DNA of 7,260 nucleotides from assembly GCA_012519465.1 (NCBI GenBank), contig JAAYQD010000179.1:1-7260 (forward strand). The letters run 5' to 3'. The stretch comes from Candidatus Cloacimonadota bacterium (GTDB taxonomy: Bacteria; Cloacimonadota; Cloacimonadia; Cloacimonadales; Cloacimonadaceae). The position numbers and the translations under genes are program-made. Under the pieces are notes generated by a model. It saw only the letters and a list, made by a program, of their open reading frames with translations. It was not told the DNA's origin and searched no databases. Shown piece by piece: positions 2,745 to 7,260 of this stretch (position 1 is its first letter; each line of letters begins with the position of its first letter).

Positions 2745-3917
2745 TTAGATAAAGAGCATCTTGGTGGTTTTCAGGTATTGTTTTTCCAATACCTTGCTAA
2801 ATTGTTTCATGAGGTTGCGGCGTATCTCCAGGTCTTTGGGCAGGGCTGGGTCTTGGTGGGCTTCGTTGATTTTGGTTCCCACCACAAATTCTATGATATC
2901 GCTATCCATCAGCAGGCGCATGAGGCGTTTCACGGCGTTATCCGGCATATCGTCTATGGAGGCGTTCTCTTCCAGTGCACGCAGGGTGCGGGAGAGGGTG
3001 ATGGTGCCTTCGCTCACCAGATCAAAGCCTTCCATATTGGCTGTGGGAGGGATGTCTCCGCTATTGCGCACTTCTTTGAGGTTCACCTTGATGGGTATGC
3101 CCATTTCGCGGGAGATGATGGCGGCAGTGGTGCCCCCACATATTATCTTGCGGCCGGTGAATTGAGAGGCGATATCTGCAAATACAGAGTCATGCTCCTT
3201 TTTGTATGGAGGACCTGTGAGCAGGAGGGTGCGGCGAGGGTTTCTGAGATATAGCGCTGCGCAGGTGCTATCATCGGCGGGGAGGTTGTTATCATATTCC
3301 CGTGCTTTGCGCACCACTCTTTTGGAGAGTTCACGGGCAGACATATAGTTGTTTTGGCGCAAGAGGCTCAGGATAAACTCTTCCACGCCCTTTTCTTGCC
3401 AGCCCAAGGGCAGGTGGGGCACGCCAATGCCCGCCTGGGTGATGCCATCAGAATAGTAAATAAGGCGGTCTTCGGGCTGCAATTGAATCTCTGAATAGTA
3501 GAGGTGGCTTTTGCGGAAGGTTTTGATGGGGATTTCCTGTTTCTCCACCTCCACCACCTGCTGGTTGCGGATGAGCACGTAAGGGGGATTGTCGTGTTCG
3601 ATGATGCGCACAAAGCCGTCGTGACGGGCATCGATGATGGTGAATGTGCTGTATCCTATATGGCGGTAGGAACATACGGGCAGGGTCTCCAAGATGATTT
3701 CCGCCACCCGCTTGATATCCATTTTGGCAGTGATAAATCCTGCTGCCATCGTGGTGGTGAGGGTTGCCAATACGCTGGCTTTGATGCCGCTGCCCAAGCC
3801 GTCTGCCAAGATGCAAATGATGCCATCCTCGTTTTTGACGCTGTAATAGCTATCTCCACAGGATTGGTAACCGTATTTGCAGTGTTGATAGTAATCGGCT
3901 TCCAAAAAGTATTGCAT
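2745..3917 (-). CDS. SpoIIE-family PP2C-type serine/threonine phosphatase with C-terminal extension, hydrogenase-cluster type
   Basis: This 390-residue protein has an N-terminal PP2C/SpoIIE catalytic domain (residues ~5-225) with the metal-binding signatures intact: G21-D22, A38-D-G-L-G-S-G44, S156-D-G-I159 and D215-D-S-T218. Enzymes of this family remove phosphate from serine/threonine, classically on anti-sigma-factor antagonists, using two divalent metal ions. No membrane segment is visible, so it should be cytoplasmic. Residues ~229-390 form a separate domain starting LLLTGPP with a conserved-looking C260GGTTA265 segment and FDLVSEGTITL (298-308); I know no function for it, although similar tails occur on phosphatases in clostridial hydrogenase loci as I recall. 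It is the last gene of the operon, 5 bp after the HydS-like gene, and its ribosome site lies inside that gene's end. The context suggests it is the output of a hydrogen/redox signalling pair. The substrate is not encoded in the window. Confidence 0.85.
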   Translation of the reverse strand: MQYFLEADYYQHCKYGYQSCGDSYYSVKNEDGIICILADGLGSGIKASVLATLTTTMAAGFITAKMDIKRVAEIILETLPVCSYRHIGYSTFTIIDARHDGFVRIIEHDNPPYVLIRNQQVVEVEKQEIPIKTFRKSHLYYSEIQLQPEDRLIYYSDGITQAGIGVPHLPLGWQEKGVEEFILSLLRQNNYMSARELSKRVVRKAREYDNNLPADDSTCAALYLRNPRRTLLLTGPPYKKEHDSVFADIASQFTGRKIICGGTTAAIISREMGIPIKVNLKEVRNSGDIPPTANMEGFDLVSEGTITLSRTLRALEENASIDDMPDNAVKRLMRLLMDSDIIEFVVGTKINEAHQDPALPKDLEIRRNLMKQFSKVLEKQYLKTTKMLFI

Positions 3918-3922
3918 GAGGG

Positions 3923-5608
3923 CTAATCCTTTTTGCCAAAGCTCTTTACGATTGAGGAGAGCAATACCTCGCTATCGGCGGCGTTTTCGCCCAAGAGGAA
4001 GGCAATCTGTTGCACGGTGGAGAGGTTTTTGCGCATCACCTCGTTTGCCTTTTCGATAATCTGTTCCTGTTGGATCACCGGCTCTGTGATATCCTGGAGG
4101 ATACCGCCCAAGATGTGATTCTTTTGGATGGAGAAAAGGGTGAGGCGGATGATCTTGCCGCGCTGGCGGATATCCTGTATCTGCACCTCTGTTCCTTCTT
4201 CCAGGGCTTTGGAAAAGAGATCGTGAAAATCTATGATGCGATCCAAATATGCACCTTCCAGATCCGGATTGGCTTCCGAAACGATGCAGGCATCAGCTCC
4301 GGCAAGCTCTGCAAAGCGATGGTTGGATTCGATGATGCGCAGGTTTTCATCCACGATTACCACTCCGGAGGGCATCGCCTTGATGAGGGCGGATGCTTTG
4401 TTTTGAGCCAGCTTGCGCAGCCAGGATACACACATGGCGGGCTCTGCCTTTTCCTCGATGAGGGCGGCGGCAAATTCCTGGCATTTATCATAGCCACAAC
4501 CGCCACAATTCAGCTCGTCTTCGCCTCTCTTTTTGCCAATCTTGAGCAGGGCGGCGGCTATTTCCGCCTTGCTGTGAGTAGTCTGTTTGATCTGGCGGGA
4601 ATGGAATTGTTTGCTAAAGTCCAAAGTCTTTTCATCCCTTTCCTTTGGTGCAGGCGGGGTGAGGGTTTGGATCTTATAACGCTTTTGCGCTGTGGAACCG
4701 CGATTGCTGACGCCGGGGCCATTCACACGGCCACCGGGGCAGGCGAGGGTCTCGATAAATACGGGATGATCAAAATTGCCCGTATCTATCTCGTCCAGAG
4801 CTTCCACCACGTCTTTCACGCCGGAAAAAGCCATAAAGAGGGTGTTTTCCGGAGGGTTATAAAACTTGATGCCATCTATCATGCCCCCGTCTATCGGGTA
4901 AAGTCCGCCTTCCTCGGCAGCACCCAAGATAAACTCTTCTTCACTGGATAATCCAGCCCAATCTATGTTGCTGAGATTGAACCAGCGCCTCAGATCGGTG
5001 AAGGTGAGGGCAATATCAAAGCTATCTTCAAATTCGTTCTTCTTTGCCACACAGGGTCCGATGAAGACGATGCCGATATCTTCCGAGATGGCTGCTCTCA
5101 ACATCTTGGCATGAGCCTGCATGGGGGAATCCACCGGGGTGATGTGGGGAACCAGATTGGGATAGTATTGCTCTATGAGGTGCACGATGCTGGGGCAGGC
5201 GGAGGAGATGAGAAGCGGATTATCGCCTTCAGAAAGCATCTGCGCACAGGCAGCCGAAACTTCCTGTGCGCCCAATGCGGTTTCCGATACACCGGCAAAA
5301 CCGAGGCTTTTGATGGCCGCAATCAGCTTTCCGCTATCCAAACCGGCAAATTCGGTTCTGAAGGTGGGTGCCAAAGACACATATACCTGGTCTTTTTCTG
5401 TGAGCAGTGCCATGGCATCGCCCAGGTCATCCCGTATCTTTTTGGCGCCCACAGGGCATACTTGGGTACAGGTTCCACACAGGATGCAGGCTTCCGGCAT
5501 CACTTGGGCACTGCCATCAATCACCATAATGGCTTTTACGGGGCATTCTCGCACACATTTGTAGCAATCCTGACATTCGGTCTTTTCGGTGTAAATCGGT
5601 TTATTCAT
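3923..5608 (-). CDS. hydS: Putative sensory [FeFe] hydrogenase (HydS-like, group C) with ferredoxin, H-cluster, Fe-S and PAS domains
   Basis: The 561-residue protein contains, in order: two [4Fe-4S] ferredoxin motifs (Cys12/15/18/22 and Cys41/44/47/51); an H-cluster domain (~70-315); a four-cysteine Fe-S domain (Cys368, 371, 376, 393; CGGCGYDKC); a PAS domain (~403-510, AMPSGVVIVDENLRIIESN); and a helical tail (~511-557). The three H-cluster loops are all altered from catalytic enzymes. L1 reads S-S-A-C-P (135-139), with alanine replacing the proton-relay cysteine. L2 reads G-P-C (184-186), with glycine replacing methionine. L3 reads L-A-C-P-G-G-R-V-N-G-P-G, so Cys290 is kept but Arg294 sits where the bridging cysteine is expected. 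The first two changes match my knowledge of sensory hydrogenases such as Thermotoga HydS, which turn over slowly and are thought to sense H2; the third is unexpected. There is no kinase domain, so signalling presumably goes through the adjacent phosphatase. The ATG overlaps the previous stop by 4 bp (ATGA) and has only a weak purine-rich ribosome site, pointing to translational coupling. Confidence 0.88.
   Translation of the reverse strand: MNKPIYTEKTECQDCYKCVRECPVKAIMVIDGSAQVMPEACILCGTCTQVCPVGAKKIRDDLGDAMALLTEKDQVYVSLAPTFRTEFAGLDSGKLIAAIKSLGFAGVSETALGAQEVSAACAQMLSEGDNPLLISSACPSIVHLIEQYYPNLVPHITPVDSPMQAHAKMLRAAISEDIGIVFIGPCVAKKNEFEDSFDIALTFTDLRRWFNLSNIDWAGLSSEEEFILGAAEEGGLYPIDGGMIDGIKFYNPPENTLFMAFSGVKDVVEALDEIDTGNFDHPVFIETLACPGGRVNGPGVSNRGSTAQKRYKIQTLTPPAPKERDEKTLDFSKQFHSRQIKQTTHSKAEIAAALLKIGKKRGEDELNCGGCGYDKCQEFAAALIEEKAEPAMCVSWLRKLAQNKASALIKAMPSGVVIVDENLRIIESNHRFAELAGADACIVSEANPDLEGAYLDRIIDFHDLFSKALEEGTEVQIQDIRQRGKIIRLTLFSIQKNHILGGILQDITEPVIQQEQIIEKANEVMRKNLSTVQQIAFLLGENAADSEVLLSSIVKSFGKKD
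3927..3931 (-). promoter_or_regulatory. Shine-Dalgarno (AAGGA) for the phosphatase gene
   Basis: Read on the minus strand, AAGGA sits 9 nt before the ATG at 3915-3917 and overlaps the last lysine and aspartate codons of the upstream hydrogenase gene. It is the clearest ribosome site in the operon, supports this start, and fits translational coupling of phosphatase to sensor. Confidence 0.65.
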
Positions 5609-5847
5609 ATTTCTATCAGTTCTTTCTTTAGTATCTCCGGCAGGATATCGCTGCTAACTTCATGATATTCGTTGCCGTTGATGGTGATATTGGGGCCTTG
5701 TGCACAGTTTCCCATGCACAAGGACCCTTCTATGCGAACGCTATCGCTAAGTCCTTGATTTCGCAGGAACTCTTCGATTATTTGCAGGTTTTCACGATTA
5801 TCCCGTGCGAAACAAGAGCTTCCCATGCAAATCAGGATCTTTTTCAT
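5605..5847 (-). CDS. Small thioredoxin-like [2Fe-2S] ferredoxin (NuoE/HydC C-terminal type)
   Basis: This 80-residue protein consists of a single thioredoxin-like ferredoxin domain. Its four cluster ligands are visible as Cys7 and Cys12 (CMGSSC) and Cys44 and Cys48 (CMGNC), followed by the typical GPN turn at 51-53. Proteins of this fold bind one [2Fe-2S] cluster and carry electrons in hydrogenase and NADH-dehydrogenase complexes; full NuoE/HydC subunits are about twice as long because of an N-terminal helical domain missing here. It aligns without gaps to the C-terminal domain of HydA encoded just upstream (same cysteine spacing, 16 identities over 60 positions). It overlaps HydA's stop by 4 bp and the HydS-like start by 4 bp, so all three are probably coupled. 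It could be an extra electron-transfer subunit of the HydA complex or the electron partner of the sensory hydrogenase; sequence alone does not decide. The start is set by the overlap and by K-K-I-L at the first strand. Confidence 0.87.
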   Translation of the reverse strand: MKKILICMGSSCFARDNRENLQIIEEFLRNQGLSDSVRIEGSLCMGNCAQGPNITINGNEYHEVSSDILPEILKKELIEI

Positions 5848-7260
5848 TGCATTCTTCTTTCTGCTTCTTCTGTGATCAAGTCTTTGATTTGATCCAATTG
5901 CGCCTTGTGGATCACATTGTCACCCACGGAGACGTTGGGGCCTTTGTCACACTTTTCACTGCAGAAGGTGGCGGCAATATCAAAGTAATTGCCCCAGGCG
6001 TTTTCTTCCACCATTTGCAGGGTCTTTGCCAGGATATCCTGAGAGCCTCTGAGGTAGCAGGAGGTGCCCACACACACGCGAATCTTGCAGCGGTCTGCGG
6101 CATCGCCCACGCTGAGGCTCAGCTCGTCATCATCGATGCGTTTGCGGTGTTTGTAAGCGGTGTGTAACAGCTCATGGGATACTTCGCTATTGGGCTCTTT
6201 CAAAAGGGTCTTGTAGAGGTCTTGGATAAAGGGGTTATCCTGGGCGCGGTGGAGCGTCATCACCTTGTCTGCATGATACAGCTGTTCGGTGCGTTTCTGA
6301 CGCTGCTTTCTGCTGTGAACGATGGGCTGACCGGCTCCGCCTGTGCATCCACCGGGGCAAGCCATCACTTCCACGATGTCATATTCTGCTTCACCGGAGA
6401 TGATCTTGTCACACAATTCCTGAGCGTTTCTCAGTCCATGCACCACTGCCATCTTCAGGTTGCCATCTGCCAATATGGCTTCACGCATACCGGAGGCACC
6501 GCGCACTTCCTGGAGCACTATGCTCTCGGGAACGGGGATGTTGAACTTATCGGCTGCATAACGTAAGACGGCTTCGGATACGCCACCGCTATTGCCAAAG
6601 ATCACTCCGGCGCCGGTGGCAAAGCCCAGAGGCAGGTCCATTGATTCTGGTTCCAGGGATTCAAAATCGATGCCAGCTTCCTTGATCATGCGTCCGATTT
6701 CCTGGGTGGTTATCGCCCAATCCACATCGGCAATACCGTCATGGATAAATTCCGGGCGTTTGCACTCATACTTTTTGGCTGTGCAGGGCATGATGGAGAC
6801 CACCACGAGGTCTTCTTTCTTTACGTTCAGCTTTTCGGGCAACACTTCCTTGGCGATGGAGCCAAACATCTGTTGCGGGGATTGGCAGCTGGAGAGGTTA
6901 TCCAAGAGCGAGGGATAGTTATGCTCGGCATATTTTACCCAGGCAGGACAGCAGGAGGTAAAGATGGGCAGCTTGCCGCCATTGGATTTGCGGTTGATAA
7001 ATTCAGTGGCTTCTTCCACCACGGTGAGGTCTGCGGAGAAGGCGGTGTCATACACCTGATCAAAGCCGATTACGCGCAGGGCTGCCACCAGCCTGCCCAT
7101 ATTCAATTCGCTGGGAGGAAGGTTGAACATCTCGCCAAGTGCCACGCGCACGGCGGGGGCAATCTGGGCTACCACAGTCTTTTGAGGATCGTGGATGGCT
7201 TCCCACACCTGTTCGATGTGAGGTTTCACCACGATGGCTCCGGTGGGGCACACGGCGGCA
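5844..7260 (-). CDS. hydA: [FeFe] hydrogenase catalytic subunit HydA, bifurcating/NAD(P)-linked type (5' partial)
   Basis: The gene runs off the right edge. A GTG at 7251-7253 encodes the valine of a ferredoxin V-C-P-T-G-A motif and is not a real start, since alanine codons continue upstream in frame. Numbering from that valine gives 469 residues. All three H-cluster loops are canonical: T99-S-C-C-P-A-W105 (proton-relay Cys101 and ligand Cys102), M155-P-C-T-A-K160 (Cys157) and M297-A-C-P-G-G-C303 (ligands Cys299 and Cys303). A C-terminal thioredoxin-like [2Fe-2S] domain (~389-460) has Cys394, 399, 431 and 435. This arrangement matches HydA of trimeric HydABC hydrogenases and HndD of NADP-reducing ones, which are around 580-650 residues long, so roughly 110-180 residues (N-terminal Fe-S domains) are probably missing here. 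The enzyme reversibly reduces protons to H2 in the cytoplasm, taking electrons from NAD(P)H and, in bifurcating forms, reduced ferredoxin through HydB/HydC partners expected beyond the window edge. Fully active by motif. Confidence 0.93.
   Translation of the reverse strand, partial: AAVCPTGAIVVKPHIEQVWEAIHDPQKTVVAQIAPAVRVALGEMFNLPPSELNMGRLVAALRVIGFDQVYDTAFSADLTVVEEATEFINRKSNGGKLPIFTSCCPAWVKYAEHNYPSLLDNLSSCQSPQQMFGSIAKEVLPEKLNVKKEDLVVVSIMPCTAKKYECKRPEFIHDGIADVDWAITTQEIGRMIKEAGIDFESLEPESMDLPLGFATGAGVIFGNSGGVSEAVLRYAADKFNIPVPESIVLQEVRGASGMREAILADGNLKMAVVHGLRNAQELCDKIISGEAEYDIVEVMACPGGCTGGAGQPIVHSRKQRQKRTEQLYHADKVMTLHRAQDNPFIQDLYKTLLKEPNSEVSHELLHTAYKHRKRIDDDELSLSVGDAADRCKIRVCVGTSCYLRGSQDILAKTLQMVEENAWGNYFDIAATFCSEKCDKGPNVSVGDNVIHKAQLDQIKDLITEEAERRMQ

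Follow-up and report, generated by a model that had tools for sequence, protein, structure and literature searches.

Arginine at the bridging cysteine position of a phosphatase-linked, HydS-like [FeFe] hydrogenase from a Cloacimonadota genome: a probable private change

The stretch of DNA that was analysed (the window, 7,260 bases) is an entire contig of a Candidatus Cloacimonadota bacterium genome (G000), which consists of 406 contigs and is 89% complete. The genes on the minus strand are arranged in the order hydA - [2Fe-2S] protein - hydS - spoIIE phosphatase. The hydA gene (5844..7259, minus strand) encodes a group A [FeFe] hydrogenase with a C-terminal [2Fe-2S] domain; it is truncated by the contig end and matched TIGR02512 (418.9 bits, cut-off 405.95), PF02906, PF02256 and PF01257. 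It is followed by a gene encoding a thioredoxin-like [2Fe-2S] (NuoE-like) protein of 80 amino acids (5605..5847, minus strand; PF01257, 33.5 bits) and by the hydS-like gene (3923..5608, minus strand), which encodes a protein of 561 amino acids that matched PF12838, PF00037, PF02906, PF04060 and PF00989. The nearest named relatives of this protein are from Candidatus Cloacimonetes genomes. Directly 3' of hydS, after a gap of 5 bases from stop to start, lies the gene for a SpoIIE/PP2C-type serine phosphatase of 390 amino acids (2745..3917, minus strand; PF07228, 68 bits). In 77 of the 80 named loci, a homologue of this phosphatase begins at most 150 bases past hydS; in the remaining three the distance is 225, 235 and 3,479 bases. 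The plus strand carries an open reading frame of 880 codons (1-2643), which is open at the contig end and points towards the phosphatase gene. The C-terminus of this frame has a NYPNPFNPSTTI-type sorting-like stretch of a kind typical of secreted proteins.

HydS is composed of two N-terminal [4Fe-4S] motifs, an [FeFe] hydrogenase H-domain, a C-terminal [4Fe-4S] motif and a PAS domain, in that order. The cysteines of the N-terminal clusters (C12-C22 and C41-C51; 5456..5575, minus strand) were located by Pfam and homologue alignment. The H-domain, which scored 149 bits with PF02906 (cut-off 22.1), contains the motifs L1, L2 and L3. L1 reads SSACP (residues 135-139; 5192..5206, minus strand) and L2 reads GPCVAKKNE (residues 184-192; 5033..5059, minus strand); their ligands, C138 and C186, respectively, are kept, and each is present in all of the best 120 homologues and in all 80 named loci. 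L3, as placed by alignments, reads ETLACPGGRVNGP (residues 286-298; 4715..4753, minus strand) and retains its first cysteine, C290. The C-terminal cluster motif (C368, C371, C376 and C393; 4430..4507, minus strand; PF04060) has the spacing Cx2Cx4Cx16C described in PMC8163306, and its four cysteines occur in each of the best 120 homologues. The PAS domain (residues 406-490; 4139..4393, minus strand) scored 28.8 bits with PF00989 (cut-off 22.6). An AlphaFold2 model of HydS (mean pLDDT 74.4) matched [FeFe] hydrogenases of the PDB.

By domain order and neighbouring genes, the window HydS fits, as a putative member, HydDB group C3, which is described as the phosphatase-linked putative sensory [FeFe] hydrogenases (PMC5037454). 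It shares with that group, as described there, the H-domain, the PAS domain and the position of a SpoIIE/PP2C phosphatase gene immediately behind its own, and differs from it in that the window HydS alone has Arg for the bridging cysteine. Group C sensory hydrogenases are described as having the same domain make-up (PMC13104023, PMC8163306). The position of the proton-transfer cysteine of catalytic enzymes is occupied by Ala137 in HydS and by Ala in 75 of the 80 named loci, and Ala is reported to be the most frequent residue at this position in sensory hydrogenases (PMC10055695). The HydS of Thermotoga maritima (TmHydS; group C, M2f) shares this Ala, the H-domain, the C-terminal [4Fe-4S] motif and the PAS domain with the window protein, whereas TmHydS is described as retaining the H-cluster cysteines and taking up the diiron site (PMC10055695, PMC13104023). 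The hfsABCD genes of Thermoanaerobacterium (HfsB, HfsC) are similar in that a PAS-type [FeFe] hydrogenase is encoded beside a serine phosphatase and a catalytic hydrogenase (PMC11837493).

Residue 294 of HydS is Arg, encoded by CGT (4727..4729, minus strand; the plus strand reads ACG), at the position of the H-cluster bridging cysteine. The bridging cysteine provides the thiolate that is common to the cubane ([4Fe-4S]) and the diiron site of the H-cluster. Column 294 was identified as this cysteine because phmmer aligned ACPGGR of the window with ACPGGC of the solved hydrogenases 8a6t and 7q4v; alignment with HydA (by eye) and with HydS relatives likewise places Arg294 at the second L3 cysteine. 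The motif is IETLACPGGRVNGPG in the HydS-like protein and VEVMACPGGCTGGAGQP in the upstream HydA open reading frame. The equivalent residue of CpI is C503. In CrHydA1 the equivalent bridging cysteine is C421, without which, it is suggested, [2Fe]H cannot be anchored (PMC11966682). The codon at residue 294 is TGT in the sister genome (G004), a 98%-identical relative, so that the window and the sister differ there by one transition. The study underlying the statement on C421 of CrHydA1 is reportedly that of Kertess et al. from 2017.

The hydS open reading frame has no in-frame stop and aligns without gaps to the sister gene. The three non-bridging cubane ligands (C138, C186 and C290) are all present in the window HydS, and the bridging L3 cysteine, which a complete H-cluster requires, is replaced by Arg294. 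Judged by its sequence, the window HydS is a member of the family by descent, a designation that carries no claim of a working hydrogenase. The preliminary description of this DNA is borne out in its account of the residue, motif, codon and operon: L3 reads ACPGGR at the bridging cysteine, the codon CGT is one transition from TGT, HydA of the same operon retains both L3 cysteines, and the rest of hydS is intact.

The residue at column 294 was read in the best 120 of 7,911 homologues found among 8,000 scored candidates; 119 have Cys, and the one with Arg is the window sequence itself. Cys was also found in 14 of 15 aligned relatives from whole genomes, three of 29-36% identity included, and the fifteenth is the window. 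A degenerate L3 DNA pattern, the count of which covers only those HydS genes whose L3 fits the pattern, gave 26 matches in 124 Cloacimonadota genomes (25 with Cys and one, the window, with Arg), and the reversed control pattern gave 2 matches in the same genomes. All 80 named genome loci, from Cloacimonadota and other phyla, have Cys; one of the two patterns that seeded this set included the Cys, and 8 of the 80 loci, without the Cys-containing pattern, entered via the other. Arg variants were also sought with a score restricted to residues 277-316, a choice in their favour; nine proteins were obtained, and Arg occurred only in that of the window. Four proteins that are 98% identical to the window HydS and come from contigs of other lengths all have Cys. 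The database lists the Arg protein with a single contig of 7,260 bases, a length equal to that of the window, and counts two member sequences for it. A search for a second hydS allele in the same genome gave one full-length hydS match only, and no relatives were found in a scan of viral contigs.

The L3 pattern was further applied to three genome sets, in which the Cys sequences are counted as pattern matches. Nine genomes behind named loci gave 10 matches, all with Cys; 392 genomes of the phylum of a spirochaete locus gave 56 matches, 54 of them with Cys; and 396 genomes of the phylum of a Geothrix locus gave 4 matches, one of them with Cys. The exceptions in the spirochaete phylum, Arg in genome G294 and Asp in genome G229, were dropped as chance matches, consisting of a non-hydrogenase frame and an open reading frame that by eye resembles a solute-binding protein. 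The other three matches in the Geothrix phylum lie in open reading frames of 34-95 codons and were dropped as well.

Arg294 is a singleton in every set examined and genuinely departs from a column that is invariant elsewhere, the bridging cysteine being present in each other homologue of the HydS family whose column was read. The alignment of orthologues at this column, which the preliminary description had proposed as a check, shows that Arg does not recur (Cys in 119 of the 120 best-listed homologues, 25 of 26 pattern matches and 80 of 80 loci). Since Arg has no recurrence in a lineage, the earlier suggestion that the diiron cofactor is held differently, or that the protein is a sensor without H2 chemistry, is not favoured; the data favour its fallback, namely that the gene was recently inactivated by mutation or that the assembly is in error. 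It had also been held that Cys in all close orthologues would mark this sequence as a singleton error. The singleton part of this statement stands, and error is one of its two candidate causes, beside a true strain mutation.

The best explanation of Arg294, and a highly probable one given the distribution of Cys and Arg among the sequences compared, is a private T-to-C change (either a mutation that arose recently in the strain or an error of one base in the consensus) in a normal phosphatase-linked sensory [FeFe] hydrogenase. Arg294 likely does not represent a new kind of enzyme, and the protein is likely an otherwise ordinary sensor. A leave-one-out count of the best 120 homologues identified 15 in which at least one column, invariant in all the others, carries a private change, and isolated departures, true or false, are therefore common in this homologue set. 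Two of the four nearest relatives have such private changes, namely N367K (P0004) and P238T (P0005). The window sequence is the sole one of the 15 in which the private change affects a cluster cysteine. One residue in one assembled contig is not to be taken as new cofactor chemistry.

Comparison with the sister genome G004 revealed 45 synonymous and 11 non-synonymous codon differences in hydS (dN/dS 0.078 for the whole gene). The H-domain (residues 61-300) accounts for 17 synonymous and 2 non-synonymous differences (dN/dS 0.034), and N129D and C294R are the sole amino-acid differences in it; apart from C294R, purifying selection on the H-domain is strong. The ratio in the H-domain implies that hydS is no old pseudogene; selection has maintained the gene ever since the two genomes separated, so that a real Arg step would have to be recent. 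The phosphatase gene shows 37 synonymous differences and 1 non-synonymous difference (dN/dS 0.007). The genes hydS, hydA and the phosphatase gene align to the sister genome without gaps, which speaks against error, and the whole contig has 3 gap columns in a global alignment or 22 gaps in blastn.

The 10 further amino-acid differences between the two HydS proteins are mostly at variable columns and thus resemble true divergence, which counts against error. When the differences were polarised by more distant relatives, C294R and T375K were clearly changes on the side of the window, N367K was the sister's own change, the window had the commoner residue at positions 2, 336 and 340, and the others were hard to polarise. 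T375K adjoins a cysteine of the C-terminal cluster, and Lys occurs at this position in 1 of 115 more distant homologues. K375 needs two base changes and is therefore not a single-base error; it hints mildly at relaxed constraint. Non-synonymous and synonymous differences stand at 11:45 in hydS versus 7:98 in three stop-free control genes (p 0.018), and the difference from all seven loci first compared, four of which had internal-stop frames, is not significant (p 0.14). The controls retained were HydG, Era-like and MnmE-like genes, and those dropped for internal-stop frames were EngA-like and HydE-like genes and the hydrogenase genes on contigs C39 and C196; the '-like' labels are guesses from cross-matches of HydF and HydG models, not annotations. 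The variable linker holds 6 of the 13.5 non-synonymous changes in hydS. The raised amino-acid change in hydS together with T375K would fit mild relaxed constraint in the lineage of the window.

The linker and C-terminal [4Fe-4S] region of hydS (window positions 4401-4700) has 25 substitutions in 300 bases versus 36 in 1,386 in the rest of the gene, a roughly threefold density. Several codons in this region, including that of T375K, have multi-base changes.

If Arg294 is a private change, the working HydS of the species would retain Cys, bind a complete H-cluster and sense H2 or the redox state. The signal would pass via the C-terminal [4Fe-4S] motif and the PAS domain to the SpoIIE phosphatase, the output of which may tune hydrogenase or fermentation genes. 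This proposed chain is drawn from the domain order, the neighbouring genes and the literature on TmHydS and hfsB (PMC10055695, PMC11837493). A result that stands against part of it is that the oxidation state of the C-terminal cluster in the group D enzyme TamHydS is described as unresponsive to H2 (PMC13104023). HydG is encoded in the same genome (491 bits, over the cut-off), whereas HydF is below the cut-off in G000 and over the cut-off in the sister genome; the assembly of G000 is 89% complete, and HydF probably falls in a part that it lacks. The L3 Cys is retained in HydA of the window and also in the hydrogenase encoded on contig C196.

The Arg form, if translated, would retain three of the four cysteines of the cubane and would likely not anchor the diiron site, so that it is predicted to be H2-blind, that is, unable to react to H2. 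It would then be a null allele or a form locked in one signalling state, in either case a loss of function. When hfsB of Thermoanaerobacterium is deleted or carries point mutations, the fermentation profile is reported to change and the growth rate to stay the same, which shows that the loss of such a sensor is tolerable (PMC11837493). The hfsB mutations are documented, whereas the window represents a presumed natural single-residue loss of unproven reality in another organism.

A genuine and fixed loss of the diiron site, after which HydS would serve either as an H2-blind scaffold or as a [4Fe-4S]-based redox sensor still signalling via PAS and phosphatase, is unlikely. Such a loss is consistent with the intact remainder of hydS, which is under selection, with its amino-acid change somewhat above that of the three control genes (p 0.018) and with the location of T375K within the C-terminal cluster motif. 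However, no second Arg sequence was found in the sets examined, the four 98%-identical proteins have Cys, and the H-domain dN/dS of 0.034 means that any loss of the diiron site must be very recent. A more specific version, in which one Cys-to-Arg step would have cost HydS its diiron site and left a [4Fe-4S] redox sensor that no longer depends on H2, whose fourth iron is open or capped by arginine and which still drives the SpoIIE phosphatase, is very unlikely. The use of an H-domain homologue without a [2Fe]H site is known from Nar1, which has no hydrogenase activity; Nar1 is described as retaining the equivalent Cys416, whereas the window HydS loses that very cysteine (PMC12621388). No natural [FeFe] hydrogenase without the bridging cysteine is described in the titles and abstract openings of the top-ranked literature matches, a scope that excludes most subscription journals. 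If Arg294 were real and fixed, it would mean that a phosphatase-linked HydS can be of use without a diiron site, and the protein would provide a natural test of whether HydS sensors read H2 at all.

It is highly improbable that the contig is a chimera or strain mosaic in which the Arg codon arrived with a divergent tract. DNA identity to the sister is uneven, at 82.6% for hydA as against 96.4% for hydS, 96.8% for spoIIE, 93.7% for the plus-strand gene and 92.5-98.5% for seven other loci, and substitutions climb from about 5,850-6,100 onward. Substitutions are also raised at 4,401-4,700 in hydS, and codon 294 lies just 27 bases beyond. In 100-base bins, however, codon 294 (4727-4729) falls outside both raised stretches, and no Arg donor was found by the L3-scored search or by the pattern in 124 Cloacimonadota genomes. 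A recombinant origin of codon 294 was judged unlikely from the distribution of substitutions along the contig.

In biotin synthase an arginine can serve as a ligand of a [2Fe-2S] cluster, and the other three H-cluster cysteines are kept in the window HydS. That Arg294 is an alternative ligand or anchor, whose guanidinium holds the cubane or the diiron site with H2 chemistry kept, is nevertheless scarcely credible, given that Arg did not recur in the sets examined, that L1 and L2 show no coordinated change relative to the sister (N129D being the sole other H-domain difference) and that anchoring of the diiron site in CrHydA1 is suggested to require the bridging cysteine (PMC11966682).

Another genome of the same genus (G001, 82% complete) has no full-length hydS; its best match (E 2.2e-19) covers query residues 10-189 only, and either hydS is absent from this genome or the assembly is incomplete. 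The divergence of hydA in the window (82.6% DNA identity, 5844-7259) suggests a recombination tract or a replacement of the gene.
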